From positions 1 through 64,000 of the forward strand of contig JAGAAO010000047.1 in NCBI GenBank assembly GCA_017615275.1: a DNA stretch of 64,000 nucleotides, written 5' to 3'. Shown here in pieces: positions 32,519 to 57,115 of this stretch. The stretch's first letter is position 1, and every line of letters begins with the position of its first letter. The notes under the pieces are model-generated. The model saw only the letters and a program-made list of their open reading frames with translations, ran no database searches and had not been told where the DNA came from. The position numbers were made by a program, and so were the translations under genes. This DNA comes from Butyrivibrio sp. Its GTDB lineage: Bacteria > Bacillota > Clostridia > Lachnospirales > Lachnospiraceae.

Positions 32519-32536
32519 GCGAAAAAAGGGAGATTT

Positions 32537-33869: not shown

Positions 33870-33893
33870 AATAAAATGATGGATGGGAGAACT

Positions 33894-38242: not shown

Positions 38243-38250
38243 ATGTTGAA

Positions 38251-39183: not shown

Positions 39184-40712
39184 ACAACGAGATTGAAACT
39201 GTTGTTGAGGAAAAAAGTAAAAAGAGGGATAGAAAAGACGTCATAAAAAATGTAGCGATAGTTTTCTTAAGCGTAATGCTTCTTCTTACATTTTTTTCAA
39301 ATACTATTATGAATTATTCGCTTCCTCAGGTTGCCACGGTTCAGGTGGAGAGAGGAAAGATTTCCAAACAGATAAGAGGAACGGGAGATATATCTGCTGA
39401 AGATCCTTATAACGTAACGCTTAAGGAGACCAGAAAGATATCCGGTGTTTCTGTCAAAGAGGGAGCTCATGTTGAGAAAGACGATGTGATTTTTCTTCTT
39501 GAGGATACAGAGTCACCCGAGCTTAGTGAAGCTAAGGACAAGCTCGATACATTGCAGCTTACATTCGATCAGAAGCTCTTTTCAGGAAAGGTTCCCGATA
39601 ACGTTATCACAAATGTAAGAAACGGTAAGAGTTCTACATATGATGCGTATCAGAAGAAGGTAAAAGAAGTAACGGACAGATATGATGCAGCTCTTGCAGC
39701 TGACAATGAGGCAGAGGCGCAGCTTAATTATATTACACAGAAAGCTGCTTACGAAAAGGCAGGAACAGATTATAACGCAGTAACACCGGGATATGTCAGA
39801 TCTCAGGCTGAGGCAGATAAGGCTGAAGCTGAGGCAAGAGGCGATGAGGAAAGAGTTAAAGACCTCAATGCAATGATCCAGGAAAGCCAGAAGGATGAAG
39901 CTCAGCTTGGAATATACGGCCAACAGATCGGGGCAAGTAACGAGCAGAAGGTTGCAACAGCAACAGAAGCAAAGAATAAAACCGCTCAGGAGCTTAAAAC
40001 AGCAGAGACTGAAAAGGAGAAGATGCTTGAAGGTCTTGGTATTGAGATTGAGCTTTTCATGTTAAAGGATCAGATCGCCGATCAGAAGAAGAAGATAGCA
40101 AAGCTTGAAGAGAATTCTGTAGGTGCATCGATCAAGGCACCTGTTGCAGGAACAATATCAAGCATTACCAAAGTTGCAGGAGAGACTGCAAGTCCCGATG
40201 AGACAATTGCCGTTATTCAGGTAGACGGAAAAGATATGACACTTGAGTTCTCTGTTACCACAGCCGAAGCCAAGAAACTGAAAGTCGGCGATGTGGCAGA
40301 GCCTACAGATAAGTGGCAGTTTAAAGAAGAGTTCAGAGCAATACTTAAGTCTGTCAAAAATGACAAGACCGATCCTTCGGGAAAGAAAGTTCTGACCTTT
40401 AAGGTAAACAGCACAGAGGTTACTCCGGGACAGTCCGTATCAGTATCAATCGGTGAAAAGCCCAAGGAATACGATATGGTAGTTCCCCGTAATGCAATTA
40501 AGGGATCCGGTAATGACAGACATGTACTTGTCGTAAAGCAAAAGAGTTCACCTCTCGGAAACAGATATATTGCTACAAAAGTTCCGGTTGAGGTTATTGA
40601 AGAAGATGATAACAACGCTGCGATAAATGCGGTGATCGAGGATTACGAGAGTGTTATAACAACAGCATCCAAACCTGTTAAAGCGGGAGAGCAGGTTAGA
40701 CTACAGGATTAA
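39180..40712 (+). CDS. HlyD-family membrane fusion/adaptor protein
   Basis: 510-residue adaptor with one N-terminal transmembrane helix (about 24-46), a split biotinyl-lipoyl-like domain (VQVERGKISKQIRGTGDI... and SIKAPVAGTISSITKVAGE), a long Ala/Glu/Lys-rich coiled coil between them (about residues 105-315), then beta-barrel and membrane-proximal domains. HlyD/MacA-type adaptors usually serve exporters, often with MacB-like permeases; in a Gram-positive cell they act at the outer face of the membrane. Finding one between sugar-importer permeases and solute-binding proteins is unexpected. Confidence 0.88.
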   Translation: MNNEIETVVEEKSKKRDRKDVIKNVAIVFLSVMLLLTFFSNTIMNYSLPQVATVQVERGKISKQIRGTGDISAEDPYNVTLKETRKISGVSVKEGAHVEKDDVIFLLEDTESPELSEAKDKLDTLQLTFDQKLFSGKVPDNVITNVRNGKSSTYDAYQKKVKEVTDRYDAALAADNEAEAQLNYITQKAAYEKAGTDYNAVTPGYVRSQAEADKAEAEARGDEERVKDLNAMIQESQKDEAQLGIYGQQIGASNEQKVATATEAKNKTAQELKTAETEKEKMLEGLGIEIELFMLKDQIADQKKKIAKLEENSVGASIKAPVAGTISSITKVAGETASPDETIAVIQVDGKDMTLEFSVTTAEAKKLKVGDVAEPTDKWQFKEEFRAILKSVKNDKTDPSGKKVLTFKVNSTEVTPGQSVSVSIGEKPKEYDMVVPRNAIKGSGNDRHVLVVKQKSSPLGNRYIATKVPVEVIEEDDNNAAINAVIEDYESVITTASKPVKAGEQVRLQD

Positions 40713-40714
40713 AT

Positions 40715-41887
40715 ATGAAAAAAGAAGTATTTGAGGTTTGTGAAAAACTAAAAAACAAAACAGTAGATTTTGCAAAGAAATCAAAAAAGACGCTGATACT
40801 GATCGCCATACTTCTTATTGTTGATATTGTCCTTGGGGTAATAAGCAGAATACTTGTAAGCGATATGCCTGAACAGGACGCAACTTCCAGATGGTCTGAT
40901 GAAAGATGTGCGCATGTAAGTCTGTTTTTTACGCAGGACCAGAACATAGACGACCATTTTATCAAGACTATGGAATATAACTTTATAACCGCTGTGAAGG
41001 AAGACGGTGTTCAGGTTGAGGAAGGCGATTACGACAGTTGCTACAGCGCAAGTGGCGTAGCGGATTTTAAGTACGGCGACAATTCTGTTACAAATGTGGA
41101 CACGGTAGGTGTTGCCGGGGATTTCTTTCTTTTCCATCCGCTTAACTTCGTTGCGGGCGGACCGTTTTATGATGATACGGATCTGAAAGATCACATTGTA
41201 ATAGATGAAGTTCTTGCATGGCATCTTTTCGGATCGGATGATGTCATCGGAGAATTCGTTGATGTAGGTGGTGTTCCTCATTATATTTCCGGAGTTTTCA
41301 AAAGAAAAGAAGGAAAGATAAGAGAAGCTGCCGGACCGCGTGATGATTTCCCGGTTGCGTATATTACTTATGACAGCCTTTCCAAGTATGGAAAGATACT
41401 GAGCGGAAGAGTTACGGAACAGGAAATTTCAGAAGACGGTAAAAAAGCAAGATTCGGTGGAATAAATTGTTATGAGATAGTGGGACCCAATCCTATTGAT
41501 AAGCTTATCTATAACAAATTAAAGGATAAATGCGGATTGGATGACAGGTTTTACCACATTTGCGAGAATTCCGAAAGGTTTAAGACAATTCCGCTCTATG
41601 AAGTTATCGGAGCATTCGGAACAAGGAGCATGTGGAGTAAAGCAATCTATTATCCAAGCTGGGAGAATGTTGCAAGGGGATATGAAGACATACTTGCGCT
41701 CCTATTGCTTTTCAGAACTATTCTGAAAGCGGTTGCGGGTATTGCACTATTCATTATTCTTAAAAAGAATTATGAACGTAACAGCATTGATTTCGATGCT
41801 CTTTATGCGAAATTGGCAGACAAGAAGTATGATATTGAAGTTGAACTTAATAAAAGGAAGAGGGACAAAAAAGGTAATGATGAATAA
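40715..41887 (+). CDS. MacB periplasmic-core-like membrane protein
   Basis: One transmembrane helix near residues 26-48, a ~280-residue extracytoplasmic domain, one C-terminal helix (about 330-352) and a charged tail. The domain resembles the periplasmic core of MacB/FtsX-type permeases: a VGVAGDFF strand, GGPFYDDTDLKDHIVIDEVLA, LFGSDDVIGEFVDVGG and YISGVF. Real MacB/FtsX permeases have four helices, so this is either a reduced subunit or a separate accessory protein. It starts two bases after the adaptor gene, the usual partner of such proteins. Confidence 0.7.
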   Translation: MKKEVFEVCEKLKNKTVDFAKKSKKTLILIAILLIVDIVLGVISRILVSDMPEQDATSRWSDERCAHVSLFFTQDQNIDDHFIKTMEYNFITAVKEDGVQVEEGDYDSCYSASGVADFKYGDNSVTNVDTVGVAGDFFLFHPLNFVAGGPFYDDTDLKDHIVIDEVLAWHLFGSDDVIGEFVDVGGVPHYISGVFKRKEGKIREAAGPRDDFPVAYITYDSLSKYGKILSGRVTEQEISEDGKKARFGGINCYEIVGPNPIDKLIYNKLKDKCGLDDRFYHICENSERFKTIPLYEVIGAFGTRSMWSKAIYYPSWENVARGYEDILALLLLFRTILKAVAGIALFIILKKNYERNSIDFDALYAKLADKKYDIEVELNKRKRDKKGNDE

Positions 41888-43037
41888 AAGGATTAATATA
41901 AAGCGGGTTGCGGGATGTTTTTTGACAACGGTTATTATGGCGACATCAATAACAGGGTGTGGCAAAAACAATAAAGATAAAGTCGAAGATGCAGCCGTTA
42001 AGGAGCTTTCCGGAGAAATTCCGGAAGCTTCAAAAGACGGCTGTATTTTTAAAGCTGAAGCTGTTGACGGAATATTAAAAGACGGAGAGTCGGTTAAGTA
42101 TCTTGATTATGTTGGCGGCAAGATCAGAGTTGTTGCATCGAACAGCGAAGAAAAGGTCAGATACATATCTTTTAATGAAGACGGATCTGATGTACAGTCT
42201 GTTGATATTCCGATTGACGGAGAAAATCTGTTTGCATACTATGCAGCTGACGAAGAAGGCAATCTCTATGCGCATATAGACAGATTTACGATCAAAGATG
42301 ACGTTGATCCTGAGGAGCAGGAAGGTGTTGCCCATGCAGGATATGAAGATGACAGCTTTGTTGAAGAGGAAGATCCGGAAGCGGCAGGTTCGGCTTCAAT
42401 GTCGGCTTCTGTAGATGAAGGCCCTGCGTCGGGATCTTATGAGAGGCTTGAATATGCCGTTGCCAAGTTTGACAGCACGGGAAAAGAAGTATTCAAGAAT
42501 GATATTTCTAAAGAGTTTTCTGTTGATGACATGTATTCGGGTATCTATTCCATGCATTGGATTAAAGGGTACGGACTTGTATTTAATACTTCGAGAGGAA
42601 TCGAGAAGTACGATGAGAAGGCAGGATTTAGTGTCATAATTGATATTTCTGAAATAAATAAGTTTTCTGATACGGTTGTAATGCTCTTTGAGGGTGCCGG
42701 AGACAAACTTATTTTACAGAGTTATAAAGATAATGTCGGCAGTGAATACAGACCTGTTGACCTTGAAAACAAGAAGGTTGGTGAACCGTATAAGGGCTTT
42801 GACAGTGAAAAGTTCTACACTTTCTCAGGCGGCGAAGGATATGATATCTATGCCAACGATGAGAGAGTGATCTATGGATTTGACAGCAAAGAGGATAAGC
42901 TTGTTGAAGTATTAGATCTTAAAAATTCTGAAATTGACGGTTTTGTGGATCCTATTGTAGCCGTAAATGACAAAGAATTTTTTGCAATAATTCCGGGTAT
43001 AGACGGTATTATGAAACTTACCGAAGCAGAAGAATAA
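41880..43037 (+). CDS. Propeller-only lipoprotein, first member of the paralogous array
   Basis: Lipoprotein (lipobox ITGC) homologous to the N-terminal halves of the six proteins that follow, sharing YLDYVGGKIRVV, DEEGNLYA, KFDSTGKE, SRGIEKYD, LDLKNSE-type and GGEGYDIYANDE segments. It stops just where the others pass into the solute-binding domain: IIPGIDGIMKLTEAEE aligns with the LSRLTKVRPEDV junction. It therefore has a predicted six-bladed propeller and no binding-protein domain. An acidic, Ser/Ala-rich insertion (about 42300-42430) occupies a loop that is variable across the family. Start at one of two adjacent ATGs (41877/41880), overlapping the upstream stop. Either a deletion product or a specialised surface protein. 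Confidence 0.75.
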   Translation: MNKRINIKRVAGCFLTTVIMATSITGCGKNNKDKVEDAAVKELSGEIPEASKDGCIFKAEAVDGILKDGESVKYLDYVGGKIRVVASNSEEKVRYISFNEDGSDVQSVDIPIDGENLFAYYAADEEGNLYAHIDRFTIKDDVDPEEQEGVAHAGYEDDSFVEEEDPEAAGSASMSASVDEGPASGSYERLEYAVAKFDSTGKEVFKNDISKEFSVDDMYSGIYSMHWIKGYGLVFNTSRGIEKYDEKAGFSVIIDISEINKFSDTVVMLFEGAGDKLILQSYKDNVGSEYRPVDLENKKVGEPYKGFDSEKFYTFSGGEGYDIYANDERVIYGFDSKEDKLVEVLDLKNSEIDGFVDPIVAVNDKEFFAIIPGIDGIMKLTEAEE

Positions 43038-43059
43038 AGGAGGTGGAAGGAAAGGAGTA

Positions 43060-45381
43060 TTGAAGAAAGTTAGGAATGTTAGGACGGTCGTAGGTTGTAT
43101 CCTGGTGGTTTCTATGATTGCCACCTGTGTGACCGGATGTGGGAAAAAAGGTGATAAAGACCAAAAAGCCGAAAACAAAAGTACTGACGCCGAGGAGCTT
43201 TTGAATGAGGCACAGAACATAGAAAAAGACTATATTTTTAAGCAGGAAGACATCGAAGGAGTGTTTGAAAATGCTGTTTATACTCCTTATCTTGCCTGTA
43301 TGGGAGATAAGGTGAATGCAGTTGTGATTTCTGAGAGCAGCGAAGTCAGTGCGATTTCGCTTAACAGAGACGGCTCCGATGTAAAGTCATTTGCAGTTGC
43401 CATTGATGCAAATAAGATGTCCGGCAAATATGCATATGATAATGACGGAAATCTCTATGTGCAGTATTGCGAGTATGAAAGAAAAGATGACATGTATGAT
43501 GATAATGCGAAACCTACAAATATTATTCTGCTTAAGTATGACGGCACGGGCAATGAGCTTTCAAGAACTGACATGAAGAAGGAACTTGCGGTAGATGACG
43601 GTTTCAAAGTCTATACAATGTATTGGACTTCAAAGTACGGTCTTGTATTGCAGACATCAAGAGGAATCGAAACTTATGACGGCAAGGGCGGACTTAATGT
43701 AGTAATTGATGCCAAGACCACCAAAGCTGTTCTTGGTGAAAAAGGTTATTACCTCTGCAAGGGATCCGGGGATCAGATCTTTTCTTCAAGCTATGAAGAT
43801 GCTGGCAGGAAACTGAGAAAAGTCGATCTGGATAACAAGAAATTCGGCGAGCCGAGTTCTGCATTGGGAGAAGGTGAATATTACAGCTTTTATGGAGGCG
43901 AAGGATACGATCTTTATGCCAATGACAACGAATCAATCTATGGCTATGATGCGAAAACAGATAAACTTGTTAAGCTTATAGACATCGAGGATTCGGAGAT
44001 CGGCGGAGAATATGGAATCACAAATATAGCCGCTCTAAGTGAAAAGGAGATGTTTGCGATAATTCCAAATTCCGATATGAAATGTATTCTTTCAAGACTC
44101 ACCAAAGTCAGACCCGAGGATGTAAAAAATAAGACAGTCCTAACCGTCGGAGGATTATTTATCGATTCCGACATGAACAGTTTTGCCCTTAGATTCAACA
44201 GATCGAATGATAAGTATAGGATAAAAATTGTTGATTACGGTGCCGGTGATGTTGATAGTGATGTTACGACCGAAGATCTGGTAAAGCAGTTTAATTTAGA
44301 TATTCTTTCGGGAAAAGTTCCCGACATTATCTATTTTAATGAGTACATAGATGTAAATAACTATGTTGATAAAGGATTGCTGCTTGATATTACATCGGAT
44401 TTCGGCAAAGGCGGAGCTCTTGGAAATATAGAGATCTTGCCTAATGTATTTGAAATGATGCATAAAAATGACAAGGTGTACACTGTCATTCCGTCATTTA
44501 GTATCGGAACGGTCGTTATGCGTGAGAGATATGCCGAAGGTAAAAAAACTCTTACGTACAATGATTGCAATGATCTGATCAAAGGAAAACATGTAGATTA
44601 TAAAACTGCATTCGGACCTTGCGATCAGAGCGAGATACTATATGAAGGAATAATATACGGAGGCGACAGATACATAGATCGCCAAAATAAGAAGTGTGAT
44701 TTTAAAAACTCCGATTTCATAGGACTTCTAAATTTTTCAAAAGAGTTCCCCAAAGAGGTTGATAACAGTCTCTACGATGAAGGAAGAGAGAAGTTTTACA
44801 CTGATGACAGTGAATTGTTTGACAGTACATATTTTTCTGATTTCTTTTACAGTTACGGAAGAGAAAAAAATGCTTTGTTTAAGGATGATATTGCATTTGT
44901 CGGATTTCCGAATGATGCAGGTGTAAATGAAGCGTGTATACAACCCGAAGCTTTACTGGGAATAAGCAGTAGCACAGCTGATAAAGACGGTGCGATTGCA
45001 TTTATAAAAGAGCTTTTTGAAACAGAATATGTTTCTGACGGTGGAAGGCCTTCCTTTTCATCCAATAAAGCAGTGCTTGAAAATATGATGAAGGAAGCGA
45101 TGCAGGAAAAATATGAGACGGTAAACGGTGAGAAAAAGCCTGTCGAAGAATTCTATTCTGTTGGCGAAGATGAGATCAAAGCAGTTCCTCTTACAAAAGA
45201 TGAGGTACAGAAGCTTTACGATTATATTCTTTCGATAAAGACAATGTATCAGTATGATATTCAAATACATAATATTGTTCAGGAGGAGGCTTCAGCGTTC
45301 TTCAGCGGTCAGAAGTCAGCCGAAGAAGTAGCCGATCTTGTACAGAACAGAGTTACAACATATATCAATGAAAATAAGTAA
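43060..45381 (+). CDS. Propeller/solute-binding fusion lipoprotein, array member 2
   Basis: 773 residues. TTG start with AAAGGAG at 43051-43057; lipobox VTGC. Residues ~45-350 form about six four-strand-like repeats (for example YDNDGNLYVQY, SRGIETYD, GGEGYDLYANDN, YGYDAKTDKL), read here as a beta-propeller. Residues ~355-773 are a family 1 extracellular solute-binding protein: FNRSNDKYRIKIVDYG, the VPDIIYF strand, YVDKGLLLDITSDF, and the characteristic C-terminal FFSGQKSAEEVADLVQNRV. Ligand unknown, probably oligosaccharide by permease type. With members 6 and 7 it shares the DSEIGG-type junction. Confidence 0.85.
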   Translation: MKKVRNVRTVVGCILVVSMIATCVTGCGKKGDKDQKAENKSTDAEELLNEAQNIEKDYIFKQEDIEGVFENAVYTPYLACMGDKVNAVVISESSEVSAISLNRDGSDVKSFAVAIDANKMSGKYAYDNDGNLYVQYCEYERKDDMYDDNAKPTNIILLKYDGTGNELSRTDMKKELAVDDGFKVYTMYWTSKYGLVLQTSRGIETYDGKGGLNVVIDAKTTKAVLGEKGYYLCKGSGDQIFSSSYEDAGRKLRKVDLDNKKFGEPSSALGEGEYYSFYGGEGYDLYANDNESIYGYDAKTDKLVKLIDIEDSEIGGEYGITNIAALSEKEMFAIIPNSDMKCILSRLTKVRPEDVKNKTVLTVGGLFIDSDMNSFALRFNRSNDKYRIKIVDYGAGDVDSDVTTEDLVKQFNLDILSGKVPDIIYFNEYIDVNNYVDKGLLLDITSDFGKGGALGNIEILPNVFEMMHKNDKVYTVIPSFSIGTVVMRERYAEGKKTLTYNDCNDLIKGKHVDYKTAFGPCDQSEILYEGIIYGGDRYIDRQNKKCDFKNSDFIGLLNFSKEFPKEVDNSLYDEGREKFYTDDSELFDSTYFSDFFYSYGREKNALFKDDIAFVGFPNDAGVNEACIQPEALLGISSSTADKDGAIAFIKELFETEYVSDGGRPSFSSNKAVLENMMKEAMQEKYETVNGEKKPVEEFYSVGEDEIKAVPLTKDEVQKLYDYILSIKTMYQYDIQIHNIVQEEASAFFSGQKSAEEVADLVQNRVTTYINENK

Positions 45382-45392
45382 GAGGATAATAG

Positions 45393-47687
45393 ATGAAGAG
45401 AACAGGTTTTACCAAAAGACTTGTGGTGTGCATTCTGGCATCGGTAGTTTTTATGTCAAGTCTTTCGGGCTGCGGCAAGAAGAAAGATACTGTCGCAGAA
45501 GCGGTAAATCAGGCTAAAGAGATAGATAAAGAGCACATATACAGAGAGGAGATGTTGGACGGGATCGTCAAAGGAAAGTCGTATGTTTCTTATCTCGATT
45601 ATGTCGGAGGTAAGATAAGATGCGCATATGCTGATGAATCCGGTAGTTTTACGTTCGTAACAGCTACGGTTGACGGAAACGTAGAGAATTCATTTACGGT
45701 TCCGATTTCCGAAAAGAATATATTTGCGCGTTTTGCAATGGATGATTCCGAGAATCTATATGCACTTTATGATGTATATCCGGAGGCAGAAAGCGAAGAT
45801 TCGAACGAAGAACAGGTAATGGAAGTCGGAGACAGTATTGTGGGATGTTTTCTCGTCAAATTCGATAAAGCCGGAAATGAGATCGCACGAGAAGATGTTT
45901 TTAAAGACTATTCGGGAGGAAATCCTTTTGAATCATATAGTATCGTCTGGACCAAGGATCACGGAATTGTCATATATACTGCAAGAGGTATTGAAACATA
46001 TAGTGAAGACGGCGGTCTGAATGCAATAATTCCTCATGACGATCTTAATAAGTTTACGTGGGGAACTTTGACTAAAGGTTTCGGTGATCAGGTGTACATA
46101 AACGGCTATACCGATTCGGAAAACATGCTAATGAAGGTTGACCTTGATGATAAAAAATTAGGTGATCCGAGTAAGATTTATAGTCAAATTGATTATGGTT
46201 CATTCTTTGGCGGAGAAGGATACGATCTGTACGTTTCAGGTGACGAGTACATTTACGGATATGACAGTAAATCGGACAGAGTTACGGAACTTGCAAATAT
46301 TGCTGATTCGGAGCTTGGTACAGGTTGGGGATTGGATACATGTGTAGCAATCAGTGAAACAGAGATTATCGCATCGGTTTCAGATGATGATAGTTGTTAT
46401 GTTTCAAGATTAACCAAAGTTAAGCCGGAAGATGTAAAGGAAAAGACCGTTGTGACTCTCGGAGGAGTAAATGTTAATTACGGTCTGATCAAAGAAGTTT
46501 ACAGATTCAATAAAAAAAGTACAGATTACAGAATTAAGGTTATAGATTATACCGAGACTTATGAGAATGCGAATTTTGATGACCTTATAAAGCAGTTTAA
46601 TACGGATGTTATATCGGGAAATGCACCTGATATGATGAGTTTTAACGGAATGTTTAATGTAAACAACTACATAAATAAGGGAATCTTAATGGATCTTACA
46701 CCTCTTTTTGATAAGGGCGGAGTGCTTGAAAATATTGAGATACTTCCGAATATCTACGACAAAATGAAGGTGAACGACAAGATATACACTGTTTTTCCGT
46801 CATTTACACTTAATACTGTTTCTGTAAGGAATCAATTTGCGGAAGGAAAAACATCACTTACTTATGATGAGTGTGATGAACTGATAAAAAATAACGGCGT
46901 AGGTTACAATAATGCATTTGGCGATTACAGCAGCAAGAATGCAATACTTATAACAGGACTTCAATACAGCAGTAATAAGTATGTGGATTACGCCAATAAG
47001 AAATGTGATTTCAAGAATGATGAGTTTATCGGGCTTTTGAATTTTGCAAAGAATTTTCCTGATGAATATGATTACGATGATAATAAGAGTGTGTATAACG
47101 ATTTTATCGAAGATAAAGCAATCTTTTTAAATTCGTATATCAATGGTTTCTATGATTATAAAGAAATATCGCAGGCTGTATTTAAAGACGGTTGTGCATT
47201 TGTGGGATTTCCAAACTGTGCCGGTAAAAATGAGGCATATATCGATCCCAATATGACGGTGTGCGTAAACAATAACTCAAAGCATACGGATGTTGCGATT
47301 GAATTTATAAAGAGTCTGTTTGAAGACTACAACGCTTCAGATGATTTCTCTTCAGGTTTTCCTGCGGATAAAGCGACATTTGAAGCCGCAATGAAGATTT
47401 CGACCGAGCCTAAGTACAAGATGGTAAACGGACAGAAAGAGCCGGAAGAAGAGTATACATATATCGACGATGCCAAGATAAAGATTGAGCCATTGTCTGA
47501 AGATGAAGCAAAAGCAATCTACGATTATATTCTTTCTGTAGATACTGTACAAAACTCATATGATTATACGGTTGAAAATATAGTTATGGAAGAAGCGGGA
47601 GCATTTTTCTGCGGCCAGAAATCAGCAGAAGATGTTGCCGATGTGATTCAAAGCAGAGTGACAACATATATTAATGAAAACAGCTGA
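45393..47687 (+). CDS. Propeller/solute-binding fusion lipoprotein, array member 3
   Basis: 764 residues, lipobox LSGC, same two-part layout. The propeller half has YLDYVGGKIRCAY, YSEDGGLNAII, FFGGEGYDLYVSGD and YGYDSKSDRV; the junction reads SRLTKVKPEDVKEKTVVTLGG. The binding half has APDMMSF, YINKGILMDLTPLF, ILPNIYDKMKVNDKIYTVF and FFCGQKSAEDVADVIQSRV. It is closest to members 4 and 5, sharing DKEHIY/F and DSELGxGWG-type segments. Eleven bases separate it from the upstream gene. Confidence 0.85.
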   Translation: MKRTGFTKRLVVCILASVVFMSSLSGCGKKKDTVAEAVNQAKEIDKEHIYREEMLDGIVKGKSYVSYLDYVGGKIRCAYADESGSFTFVTATVDGNVENSFTVPISEKNIFARFAMDDSENLYALYDVYPEAESEDSNEEQVMEVGDSIVGCFLVKFDKAGNEIAREDVFKDYSGGNPFESYSIVWTKDHGIVIYTARGIETYSEDGGLNAIIPHDDLNKFTWGTLTKGFGDQVYINGYTDSENMLMKVDLDDKKLGDPSKIYSQIDYGSFFGGEGYDLYVSGDEYIYGYDSKSDRVTELANIADSELGTGWGLDTCVAISETEIIASVSDDDSCYVSRLTKVKPEDVKEKTVVTLGGVNVNYGLIKEVYRFNKKSTDYRIKVIDYTETYENANFDDLIKQFNTDVISGNAPDMMSFNGMFNVNNYINKGILMDLTPLFDKGGVLENIEILPNIYDKMKVNDKIYTVFPSFTLNTVSVRNQFAEGKTSLTYDECDELIKNNGVGYNNAFGDYSSKNAILITGLQYSSNKYVDYANKKCDFKNDEFIGLLNFAKNFPDEYDYDDNKSVYNDFIEDKAIFLNSYINGFYDYKEISQAVFKDGCAFVGFPNCAGKNEAYIDPNMTVCVNNNSKHTDVAIEFIKSLFEDYNASDDFSSGFPADKATFEAAMKISTEPKYKMVNGQKEPEEEYTYIDDAKIKIEPLSEDEAKAIYDYILSVDTVQNSYDYTVENIVMEEAGAFFCGQKSAEDVADVIQSRVTTYINENS

Positions 47688-47700
47688 CAAGGAGAAGACA

Positions 47701-50193
47701 ATGAAAAAAGTATGTTTGGCCAAAAGAATTGCTGTATGTATTTTTGCATCGGCTATTTTAGTGTCGAGTCTTGCGGGATGTGGCAAGAAGGAAAAAAGTA
47801 AGAGTGGTAACACTGCTCTGAGCAATGCTAAGAAAATTGACAAGGAGCACATTTATAAAGAAGAAGAGATAGAAGGAGTAATTGCTCCGGAGTCTTATAA
47901 TGTTTTTCTTGATTATGTCGGAGGCAAGATCAAGTTAGTAAATGTTGATGATGGTGAGAAATACACATTTGTATCAGCCACAACTGATGGAAAGATTGAA
48001 CAGTCATTTGAGTTTACTGTTCCTTCAAAATACGCGAGCACATATTTTGCCGTGGATGAAGAAGGTAATCTCTATATGCAATATGACGTAAGGGCAGGAG
48101 ACGGTTCCGGTGATTCCGGTGCGGAAGAAGAGGCAGTTGCGGATGAGGGAGCTGCTGAGAATTCCGGTGATGTTAAGGAAGCAGGGGAAGCCGCAAGTAA
48201 GGAAGCGGTAACTGCGGAAGCCAAGACAGCCGATGCTGCAGCTGCAGATGCATCAGCAGGTGACGCTGCAACCGAAGATGCGGTAACCGATGAAGGCTCG
48301 TCAGATGTTATGGTCGAATATGGTTATGATGATACGGTTATCGAATCCGGTTTTATCAAATATGACAATACAGGAAAAGAATTGTTTAAAGAGGATCTTC
48401 TCAAAGACTATTCCGGAGATAAGTCTTATGAATCAGGCGGAGTGGTATGGACCAAGAAGTATGGCCCTGTTCTTTATTCTTCAAGAGGAATTGAGTCATA
48501 CAGTGAAGGTTCAGGGTTCAATACATTGATTTCTTCCGATGATATAAAAGATATTGATTGGGGAACCATATGTAAGGGAGCTGGCGATCAGATCTATGTT
48601 TCCGGTTTTGGAGCCGAAGGTTCGTTTCTATTGATGGTTGACCTTGATAATAAGAAATTGGGTGAACCGAGTAAGGCTTATAATGAAATAGACGGATTTG
48701 GCAGTTTCTTTGCCGGAGAAGGACATGATCTGTATATATCTGACGGTGATTATATTTACGGATATGACAGTAAAGCAGACAGCGTTACAAAGCTTACAAA
48801 TATAGCTGATTCAGAGATTGGTATAGGTTGGGGATTCAGTGATGGTTATGCTTTAAGCGAAAACGAGATGCTTGTAACAATTCCCGATGACGAAAGCAAC
48901 TATTATCTTGCAAGGCTTACCAAAGTAAAACCTGAAGATGTTAAAGATAAGACTGTTATTACACTCGGAGGAATCTATGTTGACCATAAGATCGTAAGAG
49001 AGGCTTATAAATTCAACAAGAAGAATGATGAGTACAAGATAAAAATCGCAGATTACAGTTCGGATTTCGATTATGAGAATAACTCGTATGATGATCTTAT
49101 TAAGCAGTTTAATACAGATATTATATCCGGAAATGCACCGGATATAATGACGTTTGATTTTGAATCAAATATTTACAACTATGTAAATAAAGGAATCTTA
49201 ATGGATCTTTCGCCTCTTTTTGACAAGGGCGGCGCACTTGAAAATGTAGAGATACTTCCGAATATTTTTGAACATATGCATTACAACGACAAGATATATT
49301 GTGTTTATCCGCAGTTTACTATTGATACTGTTGCAATTAGAAACAGTTTCGCGGAAGGAAGGACATCACTTACTTATGATGATTGTGATGAAATAATGCA
49401 AAAAACAGGCACAGATTATAAGACTGCATTCGGAGAGTATTGTTCAAGAAGTTCCATGTTGTACAGCGGAATTATCTATGGCGGAGATAAATATATAGAT
49501 TTTAAGAACAAAAAGTGTGATTTCAAGAACCCTGATTTTATAGCTCTTTTGAATTTTGCAAAAAATTTCCCTGAGGAGATTGATTACGAAGACGGATATT
49601 ATTATCAGTACGCAAATTACATTACCGATAAAGCTATCTTTTATTCCGAAGATTCTTATAACGGATTTGATTCATATGCGGAACTTGGACAGGGGGTATT
49701 TACAGACGGTTATACATTTGTGGGATTCCCCAACAGCAGTGGAGAAAACCAGGCATATATAAGCCCTCAGATGCAGGTCGGCATAAACAGCAAAACAAAG
49801 CATGCTGATGTTGCTATTCAGTTCATAAAGAATTTGTTTGATAACCTTGATCCGAATGGCTTTGGTGGATTCCCTGCCGATAAGAATAAATTCGAAGCTT
49901 CTATGAAGACGGTAACGGGAGAGAGATTCAGGATGGTAAACGGTAAGAAAGAACCTGAAACTTTCTATATTGACAACAAAGAGATACAGGCTAAGCCAAT
50001 GCCTGAAGCTGAAGCAAAGATGATCTACGATTACATTCTTTCTATCGACAATATAGTTGATACGTATGATTCAAAAATTAGTGAGATTATCGATGAAGAA
50101 TCCGGTGCGTTCTTTAGCGGACAGAAGTCTGCGGAAGAGGTTGCCGATATTATTCAGAGCAGAGTAACTACATATATCAACGAAAACAGTTGA
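47701..50193 (+). CDS. Propeller/solute-binding fusion lipoprotein, array member 4 with Ala-rich insertion
   Basis: About 830 residues, the longest member; lipobox LAGC. An in-frame ATG at 47674 is upstream, but AAGGAG directly before 47701 fixes the start. The extra length is a low-complexity Ala/Glu/Asp/Gly insertion (about 48095-48310) in the same propeller loop that is acidic in members 1 and 3. Otherwise it is very like member 3: YGYDSKADSV, LTKVKPEDVKDKTVITLGG, APDIMTF, YVNKGILMDLSPLF, FFSGQKSAEEVADIIQSRV. The insertion looks like an extended linker exposed to solvent. Confidence 0.85.
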   Translation: MKKVCLAKRIAVCIFASAILVSSLAGCGKKEKSKSGNTALSNAKKIDKEHIYKEEEIEGVIAPESYNVFLDYVGGKIKLVNVDDGEKYTFVSATTDGKIEQSFEFTVPSKYASTYFAVDEEGNLYMQYDVRAGDGSGDSGAEEEAVADEGAAENSGDVKEAGEAASKEAVTAEAKTADAAAADASAGDAATEDAVTDEGSSDVMVEYGYDDTVIESGFIKYDNTGKELFKEDLLKDYSGDKSYESGGVVWTKKYGPVLYSSRGIESYSEGSGFNTLISSDDIKDIDWGTICKGAGDQIYVSGFGAEGSFLLMVDLDNKKLGEPSKAYNEIDGFGSFFAGEGHDLYISDGDYIYGYDSKADSVTKLTNIADSEIGIGWGFSDGYALSENEMLVTIPDDESNYYLARLTKVKPEDVKDKTVITLGGIYVDHKIVREAYKFNKKNDEYKIKIADYSSDFDYENNSYDDLIKQFNTDIISGNAPDIMTFDFESNIYNYVNKGILMDLSPLFDKGGALENVEILPNIFEHMHYNDKIYCVYPQFTIDTVAIRNSFAEGRTSLTYDDCDEIMQKTGTDYKTAFGEYCSRSSMLYSGIIYGGDKYIDFKNKKCDFKNPDFIALLNFAKNFPEEIDYEDGYYYQYANYITDKAIFYSEDSYNGFDSYAELGQGVFTDGYTFVGFPNSSGENQAYISPQMQVGINSKTKHADVAIQFIKNLFDNLDPNGFGGFPADKNKFEASMKTVTGERFRMVNGKKEPETFYIDNKEIQAKPMPEAEAKMIYDYILSIDNIVDTYDSKISEIIDEESGAFFSGQKSAEEVADIIQSRVTTYINENS

Positions 50194-50206
50194 GGCGGGA
50201 GAGAAA

Positions 50207-52501
50207 ATGAATAAGGTATGTTTGGTTAAACGTATTGCGGTTTGTTTTTTGGCTTCATTATTGTTTGTATCAAGTATTACCGGATGCGGTAAGAAAAATG
50301 CCGGTGGAAACAAGGATGTTTTAAATCAGGCTAAAGTTATAGATAAGGATCATATCTTCAAAGAAGAAGAGATAAAGGGAATAATCGGAGAAAATTCGTA
50401 TTCCTGCTATCTTGATTATGTCGGAGGGAAGATCAAGTGTATCTATGTGGATGAAGGCGGAAAATATACATTTGTATCTGCAGATACAAACGGAACAATA
50501 GACCTGACATATGAGATTTCATTTTCGGAGAAAAATGTAATCCCACGATTCACATTGGATGAATCGGACAATCTTTATATGTTTTATGATGTTTATCCGG
50601 ATGACGAATCAGATGATTCGTCGTCCGGTTATATGGGTGATAATGATTTATTGTGCTCATATCTTGTTGGATTTGATAATACGGGAAAAGAGCTGTTTAA
50701 AGAGACTATAAAAAGAGAGGATTCGGAAGAGTATAATTCATGCAATATAGTCTGGACTCCCCAATACGGCCTTTTAATCTGTTCAAACGAAGGTATTCAG
50801 ACATACAGTGAGCAGAACGGATTTAGTTTGGTTCTCAGTCCCGAAGTTTTAAAGCAGTTTGAATGGGGCGGTTATATTTTTACAGGCGCAGGTTACCGCT
50901 TGTATGTTGAAGGTTACACCGATCAAGGCATGGTTTTGATGCCCATTGATCTTGATAACAAGAAATTGGGTGAACCAAGTAAGATTTTTGAACAGGTTGA
51001 ATATTGCAGTTTCTTTGGAGGCGAAGGATATGATCTTTATGCTTCCAATGAAAATTTTATCTATGGATATGACAGTGAAACGGACAAACTTACAGAGCTA
51101 GTCAATATAGTAGATTCAGAGCTTGGAATTGGATATGGTCTGGCTGAATGTGTTGCTGTAAGTGATACGGAAATCATCGCTACAATTCCGGATCAGAACA
51201 GTCACTATTATGTCGCTAAACTGTCTAAAGTAAAGCCTGAAGATATAAAAGAAAAGACGGTTATCACTCTTGGCGGAGTTTATGTTGATTACGACATAGT
51301 AATGGAGGCATACAGATTTAATAAGAAAAGTGATGAATACAGGATAAAGGTTGTTGATTACAGCGAAGCCGTAAAAGGTGAAGACTTAAATTATTATGAG
51401 ATATTAAAGAAGTTTAACGTTGATATTTTATCGGGAAAAGCACCCGATATTATAGCATTCGGACCATCACTGGATGTAAATAACTATATAAATAAGGGAG
51501 TATTGATGGATCTTTCTCCTTTGTTTGACAAAGGCGGAGCGCTTGAAAATATTGAGGTACTTCCCAATATTTTTGAGATGATGCATGTGAAAGACAAGAT
51601 ATATTATGTATTCCCCGGATTTACTGTTAGTACGATGGTGATGAGAAATACATACACAGGTGGAAAAACAACGCTTTCTTTTGATGATTGCGATGCGATC
51701 ATAAAGGAAAGAGGTGTAGATTATAAAACTGCGTTTGGAACATTCAGTAAAAATTCTATGCTTGATATGGGCATTTCGTATAGCGGGAATATGTTTATTG
51801 ACTGGGAAAACAGAAAATGTAATTTTAATGGCCCTGAGTTTATTGAGCTTTTGAATTTCGCTAATAAGTTCCCGCAGGAGATTGATTACGATAATTCCCA
51901 TGATTATTATCAGGATTATATAGAGGATAAGTCGATCTTTTTGGATGATTATATTTATGGATTTGATAGATACGGTGAACTTAAGAATGCTTTATTTAAG
52001 GATGAAGTTGCGTTTATCGGATTTCCTAACGGTGATGCCGAGAATATGGCGTATATCAATCCGCAGAGGATTGTGGGTATAAACAGTAAATCGGAGCATA
52101 CCGATATCGCCGTTGAATTTATCAAGAGTATGTTTGAAACATATAATTCATCCCCAAGCAATAATTTCGGTTTTCCTGTGGACAAAAAGACATTTGAGGC
52201 TTATGGAAAAGCAGCGACCGAAGAAAAATACAAGACGGTAAACGGGAAGCAGGAACGCGAAATTTTATATTATTGGATCGGCGACAATAAAACAGAGATC
52301 AAACCTTTGTCGGAGGCTGAGGTACAGAGAGTTTCCGATTATATTCTTTCAATCGATAAGGCACGGATCTCATTTGACGGTAAAGTTTCTGAAATAATAA
52401 ATGAAGAAGCTTCGGCATTTTTTAGCGGGCAGAAGTCTGTTGAAGAGGTTGCCGATATCATTCAGAGCAGGGTAAGCACTTATATTAGTGAAAACAGTTG
52501 A
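50207..52501 (+). CDS. Propeller/solute-binding fusion lipoprotein, array member 5
   Basis: 764 residues, lipobox ITGC, GGGAGAG ribosome-binding site. Propeller half: YLDYVGGKIKCIYV, FFGGEGYDLYASNE, YGYDSETDKL. Junction: LSKVKPEDIKEKTVITLGG. Binding half: APDIIAF, YINKGVLMDLSPLF, VLPNIFEMMHVKDKIYYVF, FFSGQKSVEEVADIIQSRV. The variable loop is short (Asp/Ser-rich). Groups with members 3 and 4 by shared segments. Confidence 0.85.
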   Translation: MNKVCLVKRIAVCFLASLLFVSSITGCGKKNAGGNKDVLNQAKVIDKDHIFKEEEIKGIIGENSYSCYLDYVGGKIKCIYVDEGGKYTFVSADTNGTIDLTYEISFSEKNVIPRFTLDESDNLYMFYDVYPDDESDDSSSGYMGDNDLLCSYLVGFDNTGKELFKETIKREDSEEYNSCNIVWTPQYGLLICSNEGIQTYSEQNGFSLVLSPEVLKQFEWGGYIFTGAGYRLYVEGYTDQGMVLMPIDLDNKKLGEPSKIFEQVEYCSFFGGEGYDLYASNENFIYGYDSETDKLTELVNIVDSELGIGYGLAECVAVSDTEIIATIPDQNSHYYVAKLSKVKPEDIKEKTVITLGGVYVDYDIVMEAYRFNKKSDEYRIKVVDYSEAVKGEDLNYYEILKKFNVDILSGKAPDIIAFGPSLDVNNYINKGVLMDLSPLFDKGGALENIEVLPNIFEMMHVKDKIYYVFPGFTVSTMVMRNTYTGGKTTLSFDDCDAIIKERGVDYKTAFGTFSKNSMLDMGISYSGNMFIDWENRKCNFNGPEFIELLNFANKFPQEIDYDNSHDYYQDYIEDKSIFLDDYIYGFDRYGELKNALFKDEVAFIGFPNGDAENMAYINPQRIVGINSKSEHTDIAVEFIKSMFETYNSSPSNNFGFPVDKKTFEAYGKAATEEKYKTVNGKQEREILYYWIGDNKTEIKPLSEAEVQRVSDYILSIDKARISFDGKVSEIINEEASAFFSGQKSVEEVADIIQSRVSTYISENS

Positions 52502-52538
52502 GGTTTTTTTAGGTATATGGGAAAGGAATAAAAGAGTT

Positions 52539-54791
52539 TTGAAAGGTAGTAGTATTTTAAAAAAAATTATATGCTGCAGCATGGCAGTAGTCTGTTTCGC
52601 CACAGCACTGACAGGATGCGGCAAGAAAAAAGTTGTAAACAACATTGATGTTTTTGAAGGTTTGCAGGATATAGACAAGGAGCATATCTTCAAGAAGGAA
52701 GATCTTTCGGGGATCCTTGATGAGGCAGGATTTATTGAATATTTTGACTATGCAGGCAATAAGATCAAGATTGTTTGTTCACCGGATACCGGAGATGAAT
52801 ATAAGTATGTGACGATGAATCCGGATGGGACGGATGTAAGCGTGATAGATCTGGCGTTTGAAGAGGGGACAACATATAACGCGTTTGTCTCTGATGATTC
52901 AGGGAATCTGTATGTGGCTTATACCGTATACAGTGATGCTGACTTCAATGAAATAAAAGAAACCGGTATATTAAAACTTGATAATACCGGAAACGAAGTA
53001 GCAAGAGCGAATCTTACAAGTGTTCTTTCCGAGGAGGATTATTTTATTTATAAGATTCTCTGGACTCCTGCCAGCGGTGTTATTTTTAGCACATCAAAAG
53101 GAATTGCAGCCTTTGATGGGCAAAACAGCGCCAATATAATTATTGATACAAAGGCTATTGGCGATAAAGTCGATGATTACGGAATTGAATTGTATAAAGG
53201 TGCCGGCAATCAGGTATTTGTATCGTATTATGATAAGAAGGAAAAGCAGCATCTTGCTAAGCTTGATCTTGAAAACAAGAGTGTAGGTAAGGAAAGCTCA
53301 GCGCTTGAAGATTCCAAAGCATATAGTTTCAGCGGCGGTGAAGGGTGCGATCTTTATGCTCAGGACGATCAGATTATTTACGGATATGACGCAAAAGCCG
53401 ATAAGTTTACAGAGCTTTTGAATCTTACTGATTCGGAGATCGGTGGCAAATATAATGTCGCAAATTTTGTAGCTGTAAGTGACAGAGAGCTTGTTGCGTT
53501 AATGTATGACGGAGATACATCTTTTTCTCTGGCAAGACTAACTAAGATCGATCCGCAGGATATTGTGGATAAAACGATAATTACTATGGGCGGCGTATAT
53601 ATAGAGCCCGAAACTGTCGCAAATACTGTTGAGTTTAACAGCAATAGCGATAAGTATAAGATTAAAGTTATTGATTACGCCGATTATTATGATGAAAATC
53701 CCGAAGAACATTTCAGGCTTGATATTACAATGGGAAAGGTGCCTGATATTTTCTGCATCAATAGTTATACATCAGCGGATATTGAAAGTTTTATAAATAA
53801 AGGCTTGATGATGGATCTTTCGCCTGCTTTTGAAAAAGGCGGAGCTTTGGGAGGCATAGAGGTTCTTCCGAACATATATGAGATGATGAAAACAAACGGT
53901 AAGGTATATACTGTTATTCCTTCATTCTCTGTAAATACTTTTGTTATCAGAGACCGTTTTGCAGGCGGAAAAACTTCTCTTACATTGAGCGAGTGTGATG
54001 AGCTTATAAAGAGCAATAACACAGATTACAGATTGGGCTTTGAATTGTGCGACAGAAATTATTTTGTCCTTAACGGCGTTTCATACGGCGGGGATACGTT
54101 TGTGGATTGGAAAAATAAGAAGTGCAATTTCAATTCGCCTGAATTTATAGATCTTTTGAATTTTGCCAATAATCTTCCGGAAGATGTTGACGGCGGCGAT
54201 GATGATTTTCAGTCGTTTTCTGCTGAATTGTATGCAGATGACAGAGCAATCTTTTGCAATACATTTTTGAATGATTTCTACAGCTATGGTGAACTTAAGC
54301 AGGTGACATTTAACGATGATGTTGCGTTTATCGGATTCCCAAATAACAGTGGAAAGAATGAGGCGTGCGTTTATCCCAATATGCAATATTGCGTAAGTAG
54401 TGGTACCAAGAGTGCCGATGCGGCGTTTGCATATATAAAGAGTGAGTTTGCGAACTATAAGCTTACCGAAAAAAGAGCATTATTATTCCCTTCGGACAAA
54501 GCAATGTTTGAAGCTGATATGAAAGCTGCGACGCAGGAACGAAGTGAAGAAGATGCTATATATTTCAGTACCGGCAGTGCAGATGTTGAAGCAAAGCCTC
54601 TTACGCAGGAGGATGCACAGAAGCTTTATGATTATATTCTTACAGTAAATAATGTATATAGATTTGATCCTAAGCTCGAGCAGATTATTTCCGAAGAAAT
54701 TTCGGCATTTTTCAAGGGGCAGAAATCCGCGGAAAAGGTGGCAGAACTTGTTCAGAACAGAGTTACAACGTATTTGAATGAGAAGAACTGA
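52539..54791 (+). CDS. Propeller/solute-binding fusion lipoprotein, array member 6
   Basis: 750 residues from the TTG at 52539, preceded by AAAGGA; this places a normal signal peptide (KKIICCSMAVVCFATALTGC) at the start. An ATG at 52488 is in frame but lies inside the previous gene without a ribosome-binding site. Propeller half: FSGGEGCDLYAQDD, YGYDAKADKF; junction LTKIDPQDIVDKTIITMGG; binding half: VPDIFCI, FINKGLMMDLSPAF, FFKGQKSAEKVAELVQNRV. More divergent than members 3-5 and nearer to 2 and 7. Confidence 0.83.
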   Translation: MKGSSILKKIICCSMAVVCFATALTGCGKKKVVNNIDVFEGLQDIDKEHIFKKEDLSGILDEAGFIEYFDYAGNKIKIVCSPDTGDEYKYVTMNPDGTDVSVIDLAFEEGTTYNAFVSDDSGNLYVAYTVYSDADFNEIKETGILKLDNTGNEVARANLTSVLSEEDYFIYKILWTPASGVIFSTSKGIAAFDGQNSANIIIDTKAIGDKVDDYGIELYKGAGNQVFVSYYDKKEKQHLAKLDLENKSVGKESSALEDSKAYSFSGGEGCDLYAQDDQIIYGYDAKADKFTELLNLTDSEIGGKYNVANFVAVSDRELVALMYDGDTSFSLARLTKIDPQDIVDKTIITMGGVYIEPETVANTVEFNSNSDKYKIKVIDYADYYDENPEEHFRLDITMGKVPDIFCINSYTSADIESFINKGLMMDLSPAFEKGGALGGIEVLPNIYEMMKTNGKVYTVIPSFSVNTFVIRDRFAGGKTSLTLSECDELIKSNNTDYRLGFELCDRNYFVLNGVSYGGDTFVDWKNKKCNFNSPEFIDLLNFANNLPEDVDGGDDDFQSFSAELYADDRAIFCNTFLNDFYSYGELKQVTFNDDVAFIGFPNNSGKNEACVYPNMQYCVSSGTKSADAAFAYIKSEFANYKLTEKRALLFPSDKAMFEADMKAATQERSEEDAIYFSTGSADVEAKPLTQEDAQKLYDYILTVNNVYRFDPKLEQIISEEISAFFKGQKSAEKVAELVQNRVTTYLNEKN

Positions 54792-54814
54792 AGGTTGGGA
54801 GAAATATTTACAGT

Positions 54815-57115
54815 ATGAGTTTTAAAAAGATTATAAAGAAGATTACATGCGGCATTTTAGTTACAGTCCTATCTGTATCGGCAGTAACAGGATGTGGCAA
54901 GAAAGAGGATAAAAAAAATCAAAAAGCAGATAATGTGGCAGTTTTAAAAGATGCACAGAGCATTGATGTGGAGTATGTTTTTAAGCAGGAAGATTTGGAA
55001 GGCATAATCGAAGAAGATGATGAGATTCGGCACCTTGATTATGTGGGAGATAAGGTCAGGGTCGTATCTTTGTCCAAGGATGGAAAGCTAAAGTGCATTT
55101 CTTTTAACAAAGACGGATCGGATGTTCAATCGTTTGATATTCCAATCAACGGAAATGATATTTATGCCGGATATGTTTCAGATAAAGACGGAAATTTATA
55201 TATACAATATGAGGTTTATAAGGGAGAAGGTGATAAAACGCTTCGATCCGCACCGGAAGAATGTGAGAGGACGGAATCGTATCTTGCCAAATATGACAGC
55301 ACGGGAAAAGAGCTTGTTAAAGTTGATGTTTTGGAAGAATATAAAGATTTTGAAGAGCGTTACATCGGATCTATGTGCTGGATTGATGGATATGGAATTG
55401 TTATGCATTCGCCAAGAGGAATTGAGACATACAGTGAGGAATCCGGTTTCAATGTAGTTGTTGATGAAAAGTCTTTGCAAGATATTTACGATTATCCGTG
55501 TGATTTATATGCCGGATCAAACGGACTTTTGTTTGTTAACGGACATGAAGAGGAAAAAGGGTATACGCTTAGATCGTTTGATCTTAATAATAAGAAATTC
55601 AGTGAGCCATCAACCGCATTTGACAGTACTTGTTTATACCATTTTTTTGAAGGTGTGGGATATGATATTTATACCAGCGATTATGATGGAATATACGGAT
55701 ATAACAGTCAAAAGGATAAGCTTACAAAGATTCTTGATTTTGAAGATTCGGATATTGTCGCTATAGATTCTTTTTCAAGTTTAGCGTTTTTGAGCGATAC
55801 AGAAATTTATGCGTATTATTATGATAGTGATAATGGGGATAAGATTTTTGCCAGATTTACGAAAGTAACTCCTGCGGATGTGGCAAATAAGACCGTGATC
55901 ACTGTCGGCGGATTGTGTATTGACGAAAATATTCGAAAAGCTGCGCGAAAATTTAATAAGGCCAACGATAAATATAAGATAAAGCTTGCAGATTACGGCG
56001 AGCTGTATGCTTATGACGACGATATTTCGTATGAAGAAGCATTGAATCAATTCAATCTTGATATCCTGGCGGGCAATGTACCTGATATTTTATGTTTTTC
56101 GTATTATTCAGATGAAAATGTATATATCGATAAAGGCTTGCTGCTTGATCTTGCACCTGCGTTTGATAAGGGAGGTGCATTGGGTGACATTGAGATACTT
56201 CCTAATCTGTTCGATATGATGCACACAGATGACAAGATTTATAGTGTATTTACATCATTTCAGGTTGATACGGTCGTGATGAGAGAGCGGTTTGCCGAAG
56301 GAAAGAATTCTATTACATTTAAAGAATGTGATGACTTAATCAAGGAAAACAATACAGATTACAAGCTTGCTTTCGGATTCTTTGATAAGGAGTTTTTGCT
56401 TGAGCGTGCATTTATACAGGGTGGAAATAAGTTTGTTGATATGCACAATAAAAAATGCAATTTTAACAGCCCTGATTTTATAGATCTTTTGAAATTTGCA
56501 AACAATTTTCCTACTGAAATTGATTACAGCGTTTCTGAAGGAAGCGGCATTGAATTTTATGCGGACGACAGATCGATATTTGATTTTGAAACTATTGATG
56601 GTTTTTATGATTATGCAAGAAAAAAACAGGCTGTATTTAATGATGAGATTGCGTTTGTCGGATTCCCAAATAACAGCGGAGAAAACGAGGCGTGCATTTT
56701 CCCTGATAACCATATGGGAGTGTACAGCAAAACCAAATATCCGGATGTAGCTTATGAATTTATAAAAACGGTATTTGAAGAATCGGATCAAGAATTTGAG
56801 AGGGCAAACGATTTCCCTTCAGATAAAGCTATGTTTGAGAAAATGATGCAGTTATCAATGGATGCATCCGCACTTGAAGGTGTAGAGCTTTACACCGATG
56901 AAGATACATTAAAGGCAGAGCCATTGTCCAAGGAAGATACACAGAAACTCTACGACTATATTCTTTCTGTAAAGACGCTCTATAAAAACGAACAGAAGGT
57001 AAGAAACATTGTGGTAGAGGAAGCTTCAGCATTCTTCAGTGGGCAGAAAACCGCAGAAGAAGTTGCAGAAATCATTCAGAGCAGAGTATCGACTTATTTG
57101 AATGAGATTGGCTGA
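54815..57115 (+). CDS. Propeller/solute-binding fusion lipoprotein, array member 7
   Basis: 766 residues, lipobox VTGC. Propeller half: HLDYVGDKVRVV, SPRGIETYS, GVGYDIYTSDYD, YGYNSQKDKL; junction FTKVTPADVANKTVITVGG; binding half: VPDILCF, YIDKGLLLDLAPAF, ILPNLFDMMHTDDKIYSVF, FFSGQKTAEEVAEIIQSRV. Last gene of the array; no clear terminator follows before the mscL promoter. A few bases with weak pairing (GGAAAAC/GTTTCC near 57125) are all that is seen. Confidence 0.85.
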   Translation: MSFKKIIKKITCGILVTVLSVSAVTGCGKKEDKKNQKADNVAVLKDAQSIDVEYVFKQEDLEGIIEEDDEIRHLDYVGDKVRVVSLSKDGKLKCISFNKDGSDVQSFDIPINGNDIYAGYVSDKDGNLYIQYEVYKGEGDKTLRSAPEECERTESYLAKYDSTGKELVKVDVLEEYKDFEERYIGSMCWIDGYGIVMHSPRGIETYSEESGFNVVVDEKSLQDIYDYPCDLYAGSNGLLFVNGHEEEKGYTLRSFDLNNKKFSEPSTAFDSTCLYHFFEGVGYDIYTSDYDGIYGYNSQKDKLTKILDFEDSDIVAIDSFSSLAFLSDTEIYAYYYDSDNGDKIFARFTKVTPADVANKTVITVGGLCIDENIRKAARKFNKANDKYKIKLADYGELYAYDDDISYEEALNQFNLDILAGNVPDILCFSYYSDENVYIDKGLLLDLAPAFDKGGALGDIEILPNLFDMMHTDDKIYSVFTSFQVDTVVMRERFAEGKNSITFKECDDLIKENNTDYKLAFGFFDKEFLLERAFIQGGNKFVDMHNKKCNFNSPDFIDLLKFANNFPTEIDYSVSEGSGIEFYADDRSIFDFETIDGFYDYARKKQAVFNDEIAFVGFPNNSGENEACIFPDNHMGVYSKTKYPDVAYEFIKTVFEESDQEFERANDFPSDKAMFEKMMQLSMDASALEGVELYTDEDTLKAEPLSKEDTQKLYDYILSVKTLYKNEQKVRNIVVEEASAFFSGQKTAEEVAEIIQSRVSTYLNEIG

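Follow-up and report, generated by a model that had tools for sequence, protein, structure and literature searches.

Among the described systems closest to the locus analyzed here are the CUT1 ATP-binding cassette (ABC) importers, which include MalEFGK2, MsmEFGK, SugABC, and the alginate importer AlgQ-M1M2S. Solute-binding proteins (SBPs) are normally single-domain proteins, and membrane fusion proteins (MFPs) and MacB domains have been described in export systems. We analyzed a 64,000-nucleotide stretch of Butyrivibrio sp. DNA (termed the window; contig C16 in a draft genome of 3.18 Mb with 84.8% completeness). It carries a tandem array of lipoprotein genes, most of which join a predicted beta-propeller to a family 1 solute-binding domain (propeller-SBP fusion; PS). 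Directly upstream lie genes for a MalF-type permease, a MalG-type permease, a MacA/HlyD-type MFP, and a protein with a MacB-like periplasmic domain. PS and these four genes together are termed the core cassette. We regard it as somewhat probable that the cassette encodes an ABC importer resembling those of the CUT1 group, which takes up oligo- or polysaccharides and has efflux-derived extracytoplasmic subunits in addition.

Lipoprotein array and adjoining transport genes

The tandem lipoprotein array was confirmed. Seven consecutive open reading frames (ORFs) occupy 41880-57115 of the + strand, with gaps of 11 to 49 bp when starts at 47701 (member 4) and 52551 (member 6) are chosen; the longest ORFs listed for these two members each overlap the preceding gene by 14 bp. 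The lipobox GCGK is present in all seven. A two-part layout was found in six members (ORFs of 764-839 amino acids, aa), all of which have the junction (R/K)(L/F)(T/S)K(V/I)xPxD(V/I)xxKT, a T-x-GG turn, and the terminus FF.GQK[ST][AV]E.VA. Member 1 consists of the N-terminal half only, without the SBP half. An earlier, sequence-only reading of the window had described seven consecutive same-strand lipoprotein genes, six of them two-part, and was correct on both points; its heading, which had all seven joining the two domains, applies to six and fails for member 1, and its own text says six. Genes of the core cassette in the window, all on the + strand, are as follows.

37316..38242, +: MalF-type permease (BPD_transp_1, 3.5e-14; 57-76% identity to 10 relatives)
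38251..39183, +: MalG-type permease with EAA..DGA loop (BPD_transp_1, 3.3e-11; profile to SugB 2.7e-21, AlgM2 2.1e-20, MalG 5.9e-15)
39180..40712, +: MFP of MacA/HlyD type with one N-terminal transmembrane (TM) segment, residues 21-39 (TIGR01730 RND_mfp 6.2e-21, below cut-off; PDB 4kks MFP 1.7e-5)
40715..41887, +: MacB-like periplasmic core domain flanked by two TM helices (MacB_PCD 2.1e-8; profile to MacB 1.2e-10, YknZ 1.2e-4)
41880..43037, +: propeller-only lipoprotein, member 1, 385 aa (aligns to the N-terminal half of the fusions)
43060..45381, +: propeller-SBP lipoprotein PS2, member 2 (SBP_bac_1, 1.2e-6; alignment of array members)
45393..47687, +: propeller-SBP lipoprotein PS3, member 3 (SBP_bac_1, 2.5e-9)
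47674..50193, +: propeller-SBP lipoprotein PS4, member 4, likely start 47701, with a long acidic Ala/Ser/Thr-rich insert (by alignment; no Pfam match of its own)
50207..52501, +: propeller-SBP lipoprotein PS5, member 5 (SBP_bac_1, 8.6e-7)
50285..51256, +: predicted propeller half of PS5, from lipobox Cys to junction (N-terminal profile and blade comparison)
51257..52498, +: solute-binding half of PS5 (SBP_bac_1 at residues 391-642; profile to CbpC 7x0o 1.8e-9)
52488..54791, +: propeller-SBP lipoprotein PS6, member 6, start codon uncertain (by alignment; no Pfam match of its own)
54815..57115, +: propeller-SBP lipoprotein PS7, member 7 (SBP_bac_1, 1.5e-5, just below cut-off)

At E<=1.5e-5, the Pfam family SBP_bac_1 was matched by four of the six fusions, and three of these matches exceed the Pfam cut-off. 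Members 4 and 6 gave no SBP_bac_1 match at E<=1; all six fusions nonetheless align over the domain. When the array-alignment profile was compared with PDB, the only sequences at E<=0.01 were CbpC (1.8e-9), Lmo0181 (7.5e-6), an arabino-oligosaccharide binder (4.8e-4), and the chitin-oligosaccharide binder NagB1 (7e-4).

The N-terminal half (~320 residues) is predicted to be beta-propeller-like, an assignment of fold that comes from sequence profiles. The N-terminal halves of the seven members had no Pfam match alone, single-sequence Pfam scans gave nothing strong, and a 24-sequence profile had one match in PDB (E 0.62). Only the search with a 75-sequence profile was decisive. Its top matches were CylK (1.1e-6), the two-component sensor 3ott (2.9e-6), and the PQQ protein 3hxj (2.1e-5), all whole-sequence E-values (the best single stretch of CylK reached only 0.08), followed by NHL, WD-repeat, and tricorn proteins; we take all of these to be propeller folds. 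Non-propeller entries (gamma-sarcoglycan, La Crosse L protein, beta-2-microglobulin) appeared from E 0.3. Weak Pfam matches among the 75 N-terminal halves were most frequently to Reg_prop (9), SGL (5), and Mala_s_1-like (5), out of 79 weakly matched families that included kinds other than propellers. Profiles of 13 divergent relatives pointed the same way: their N-terminal halves matched WD-40 repeat proteins (best 1.4e-26) and aligned with the 75-sequence profile over 269 columns at 98.4% probability, and their consensus holds an Asp-box-like motif.

Internal repetition was examined by blade comparison. Six blades, a number set by hand segmentation, resembled each other with mean z 3.5 and 6/15 pairs above z 3, against a null in which columns are shuffled and strand periodicity is not preserved; two control sets from the SBP half gave mean z of 0.1 and 0.0, with 1/15 pairs above 3 in each. 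A first run on the 75-sequence alignment had 8/15 pairs above z 3. Blade pairs 1-5, 2-5, and 3-6 showed no likeness in this comparison. An acidic Ala/Ser/Thr-rich stretch of >40 residues is present in repeat two of 41/91 fusions, and sequence conservation is lower in the N-terminal half than in the SBP half in 15/15 window pairs (32-51% vs. 45-58%). At the level of sequence profiles, the two-domain design and the duplication of members that the sequence-only reading had proposed are supported.

The core domain of the MacB-like protein is flanked by two hydrophobic segments; this holds for the window protein and for 13 relatives, with the N-terminal segment called double in two cases. All eight PDB sequences matched by its profile at E<=1 are MacB or YknZ. 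No ATPase or FtsX domain was found in it by Pfam, profile, or TM calls.

Butyrivibrio loci have one to six fusions beside the cassette, and zero to two propeller-only genes. A division of the members into groups 3-5 and 2, 6, 7 had been suggested. Members 3-5 did group, together with three genes of other loci (L007, on another contig of the window's own genome, L016, and L017); support was 100/99 for this set and 91/67 for the three alone. The group {2,6,7} was rejected as a clade by the approximately unbiased (AU) test (p 0.013). Placing the six window fusions in one clade was likewise rejected (AU p 8.8e-6), and the tree also rejected origin of the array in a single burst specific to one lineage; the AU tests took in 31/91 rows. 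Eighteen receptor sequences are 33-54% identical to PS5, whereas the permeases are conserved (69% and 75% mean column identity, 11 rows each).

Some further features of the array were recorded. Propeller-only lipoproteins have a common EGVAHAG motif in their acidic insert (window 41880-43037; L018 12482-13639; L021 11948-13111; L023 11948-13108); the propeller-only gene heads the array in the window but closes it in L018, L021, and L023. In L008 (own genome, C75:33699-35885), one in-frame stop was counted in the PS match; judged from the ORF ends, this stop is the final codon of that match. A promoter scan of the window was near chance (69 found vs. 55.9 expected), terminator-like sites numbered 17 (9.0 expected), and a plasmid search gave a single weak match (25.6% identity, covering 16% of the query).

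Recurrence of the cassette in other genomes

PS matches were found in 75/79 genomes of the genus (own genome included). At E<=0.001 they were found in 149/397 genomes of the family, many of them weak and covering part of the SBP half. In a named genome collection, nine of ten related loci were from Butyrivibrio; the tenth, weak, was from a Ruminococcus metagenome-assembled genome. Strong MacB-domain matches (>180 bits) were present in 72/79 genus genomes and in 41/397 family genomes (39 outside the genus, two inside), followed by a gap to 40 and 48 bits. A listed PS was located <=10 kb from the strong MacB match in at least 63/72 genus genomes and at least 34/39 family genomes; these counts are lower bounds, and the family PS search scored at most two candidates per genome. 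For genomes having no nearby PS (9 genus, 5 family), a listed PS was on another contig in 8 and 5, respectively.

The MacB match extended beyond the family. In a class sample (391 genomes), a second family had four genomes scoring 264-288 bits, and two more families together had eleven at 84-144 bits; of these, five class-sample loci (L106-L110) all had the four core genes other than PS, and four had a PS label. In a phylum sample (348 genomes), another family had two genomes with scores of 249 and 290 bits, and each carries the full cassette (L126, L127). The association of the fusion with MalFG pairs, which the sequence-only reading had advised looking for in other Lachnospiraceae, is supported: such a pair lies directly upstream in the window, and others occur together with the fusion in other genera. 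That reading had missed MalF and MalG, as well as the MFP and MacB-like genes, which recur with the fusion in the same way.

MalF, MalG, MFP, and MacB domain were on the same strand in 35/49 tabulated loci, a fraction that is not a prevalence (loci were chosen by PS or MacB match, and L018/L083 and L021/L076 are apparently the same loci). Thirty-three of these 35 have a PS label; the other two are L108 and L115, the latter having a 773-aa SBP beside MalF. Of the remaining 14, seven have no MFP or MacB label (L016, L017, L019, L020, L073, L074, L075), L021, L076, and L125 are cut, and L119, L120, L121, and L122 have no MacB label (a 356-aa neighbor in L119 has a sub-threshold MacB_PCD match). 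All five cassette genes were present in 8/8 further loci chosen by MacB match. PS genes at L019 (2373-12211, also near another SBP gene) and L074 (8748-13886) have no MalF, MalG, MFP, or MacB label. OmpR-type response regulator and/or histidine kinase genes are near the divergent cassettes L114, L117, and L119.

These distributions bear on a possible main role of the propeller-SBP lipoproteins in sensing or surface adhesion, in which bound ligand would be signaled to kinases, diguanylate cyclases, or chemoreceptors. The regulatory genes near L114, L117, and L119 fit that possibility, as do an EAL/GGDEF response regulator near L087 and the location of the L019 PS near GGDEF and MCP genes, without permeases. 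However, PS shares its locus with all four other core genes in the 33 loci counted above, and regulators are usual beside transport operons. We consider a mainly sensory or adhesive role improbable.

The recurring cassette, marked by the MacB domain in 72/79 genus genomes and 39 further genomes of the family sample, suggests an unnamed transport system of gut and rumen bacteria.

Transport model and alternatives

The proposed importer would work as follows. Several membrane-anchored receptors, each a propeller plus a Venus-flytrap SBP, would capture glycans and, in turn, pass them to a single MalF-MalG translocator common to all. The MacA-type MFP and the two-TM-anchored MacB-type core domain may surround the translocator as an extracytoplasmic scaffold or funnel that would hold the receptors or guide substrate through the wall. 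Cassettes without their own MalK would be powered by the MsmX-like ATPase of the genome. Domain content, lipidation motifs, and the recurring gene set are established from sequence, as are the MalK genes in three cassettes and the contrast between divergent receptors and conserved permeases. Glycans as the substrate class, inward direction, assembly of the products into one complex, use of MsmX, and the roles given to propeller, MFP, and MacB domain are what we infer from these features. A bolder version is conceivable, in which these ABC importers form a class that co-opted the MacA/MacB extracytoplasmic apparatus: the propeller-SBP receptors would bring polymeric or branched glycans through the MFP funnel onto MalFG, and an efflux conduit would thus run inward in Gram-positive walls. 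We hold this version only tentatively.

A MalK-type ATPase having OB_MalK and TOBE_2 domains is located beside the cassette in L118, L126, and L127, with 51-57% identity to the MsmX-like protein of the window's own genome. The gene set is therefore tied to import. The own genome, 84.8% complete as noted, has a single OB_MalK match, on another contig, and none in the window operon.

It is also possible that the system handles peptides or cell-wall-active compounds (by capture and removal) rather than glycans. The MacA and MacB families and Ytr-like companions are linked to peptide and envelope stress. In contrast, the SBP half matches oligosaccharide binders, the permeases match sugar permeases, and the ATPase of the three cassettes above is of MalK type; we judge such substrates very improbable.

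The sequence-only reading had suggested that the propeller could capture a large glycan. Genes of families GH9, GH10, GH5, and GH35, found beside four cassettes (L108, L113, L087, L130), fit glycans as substrates. A consistent glycoside-hydrolase neighborhood was not found: tRNA synthetase, CNNM, DUF711, and peptidase genes are near other cassettes.

Several observations weigh against the importer model. The MalF coupling loop is EVA..E[SN]A in 10/11 rows (EVT..DSS in L092), and the MalG loop is E[AS]A..DGA in 11/11; MalF has E[SN]A where MalG has DGA, and coupling to MalK is therefore not certain. Housekeeping genes adjoin some cassettes, L108 has the four other core genes without a PS label, and some PS genes (e.g., that of L019, beside GGDEF and MCP genes) have no permeases, as might be expected of a sensor. 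Between PS and MalF in L123 (6742-8210) are an ABC ATPase lacking MalK domains and a protein of 231 aa that has no Pfam match. In the window, the permease genes are preceded by three others, in a run (33876-41887, up to the array) whose spacing is tight or overlapping.

33876..34280, +: GntR-family regulator, YtrA/PmtR-like, 134 aa (Pfam GntR 5.8e-13; NCBIfam PmtR 1.2e-23, below cut-off)
34277..35182, +: ABC ATPase of efflux/ABC-2 type, 301 aa (ABC_tran 3.4e-24; best PDB match Rv1218c efflux ATPase 3.3e-31)
35133..37319, +: multi-TM, ABC-2-like protein (DUF6449 9.5e-5, just below cut-off; 10 hydrophobic segments, two overlapping)

The ATPase of this trio has no OB_MalK or TOBE match in Pfam, and a MalK C-terminal domain was not found. 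The trio was found in same-genus loci only; it is complete in L022-L024, L077, L080, L082, L083, and L128, and parts are present in cut loci. None was found in cassettes L084-L092, which are from other genera. Because of the trio and the non-MalK ATPase of L123, an envelope-stress or export role could be indicated.

These genes bring up an alternative in which one operon encodes two machines that share only their regulation: a conventional CUT1 importer served by several receptors, and a separate MFP/MacB envelope module for stress or export. MFP and MacB domain are efflux families, the YtrA-like regulator, efflux-type ATPase, and ABC-2-like protein are in the same-genus operons, and other ABC ATPases are near L091, L108, L110, L123, and L127. 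However, the MacB domain lacks ATPase and FtsX parts, and no MacB-type ATPase was recognized nearby in a search limited to two ATPase queries and a small number of Pfam checks. The MacB domain recurs with MalFG and MFP in 43/57 tabulated loci overall, and in L118 the MFP and MacB domain are between PS and MalF. We consider two separate machines unlikely, and the importer with added efflux-derived subunits remains our preferred explanation.

Just upstream of the trio, 25635-33634 is an operon-like run with the look of an exopolysaccharide locus: a 1035-aa polysaccharide deacetylase-domain protein, a chitin-synthase-like GT2, a second deacetylase, and a GH18.

Comparison with known transport systems

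In the open-access literature searched, no paper on this cassette or design was found among the matches listed; such absence is weak evidence. In Butyrivibrio on xylan and pectin, CUT1-type SBPs and permeases are reported to be upregulated (PMC6344614); the main text of that paper contains neither "lipoprotein" nor "HlyD". Two questions become testable with the cassette: whether a MacA-type conduit can serve an importer, and what a propeller adds to a receptor.

The cassette resembles CUT1 importers in its MalF/MalG-type permeases, its family 1 SBP, and, in three cassettes, a MalK/MsmX-type ATPase. It differs from them in the N-terminal propeller of the SBP, in having several receptors per translocator, and in the MFP and MacB domain; we know of no CUT1 system that has these features. 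With the MacAB and YknWXYZ exporters it shares a MacA-type MFP (below the family cut-off) and a MacB/YknZ periplasmic core; in contrast to those exporters, the cassette protein has no MacB ATPase or FtsX core, and it is paired with importer permeases and SBPs. The same-genus operon is similar to B. subtilis YtrABCDEF in having a YtrA-like regulator, a YtrB-like ATPase, an ABC-2-like protein, and a MacB_PCD protein. The cassette, unlike YtrABCDEF, has MalFG, MFP, and SBPs, and no companion trio was found with it in L084-L092. MCE-type ABC importers (LetB/PqiB, Mce) are similar by analogy only, as importers with a hexameric extracytoplasmic conduit; the proteins are unrelated, and MCE substrates are lipids. 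Several paralogous lipoprotein SBPs per permease pair are found also in Borrelia OppA1-5 and pneumococcal Ami/AliA/AliB; unlike the cassette, those are peptide systems with single-domain SBPs.

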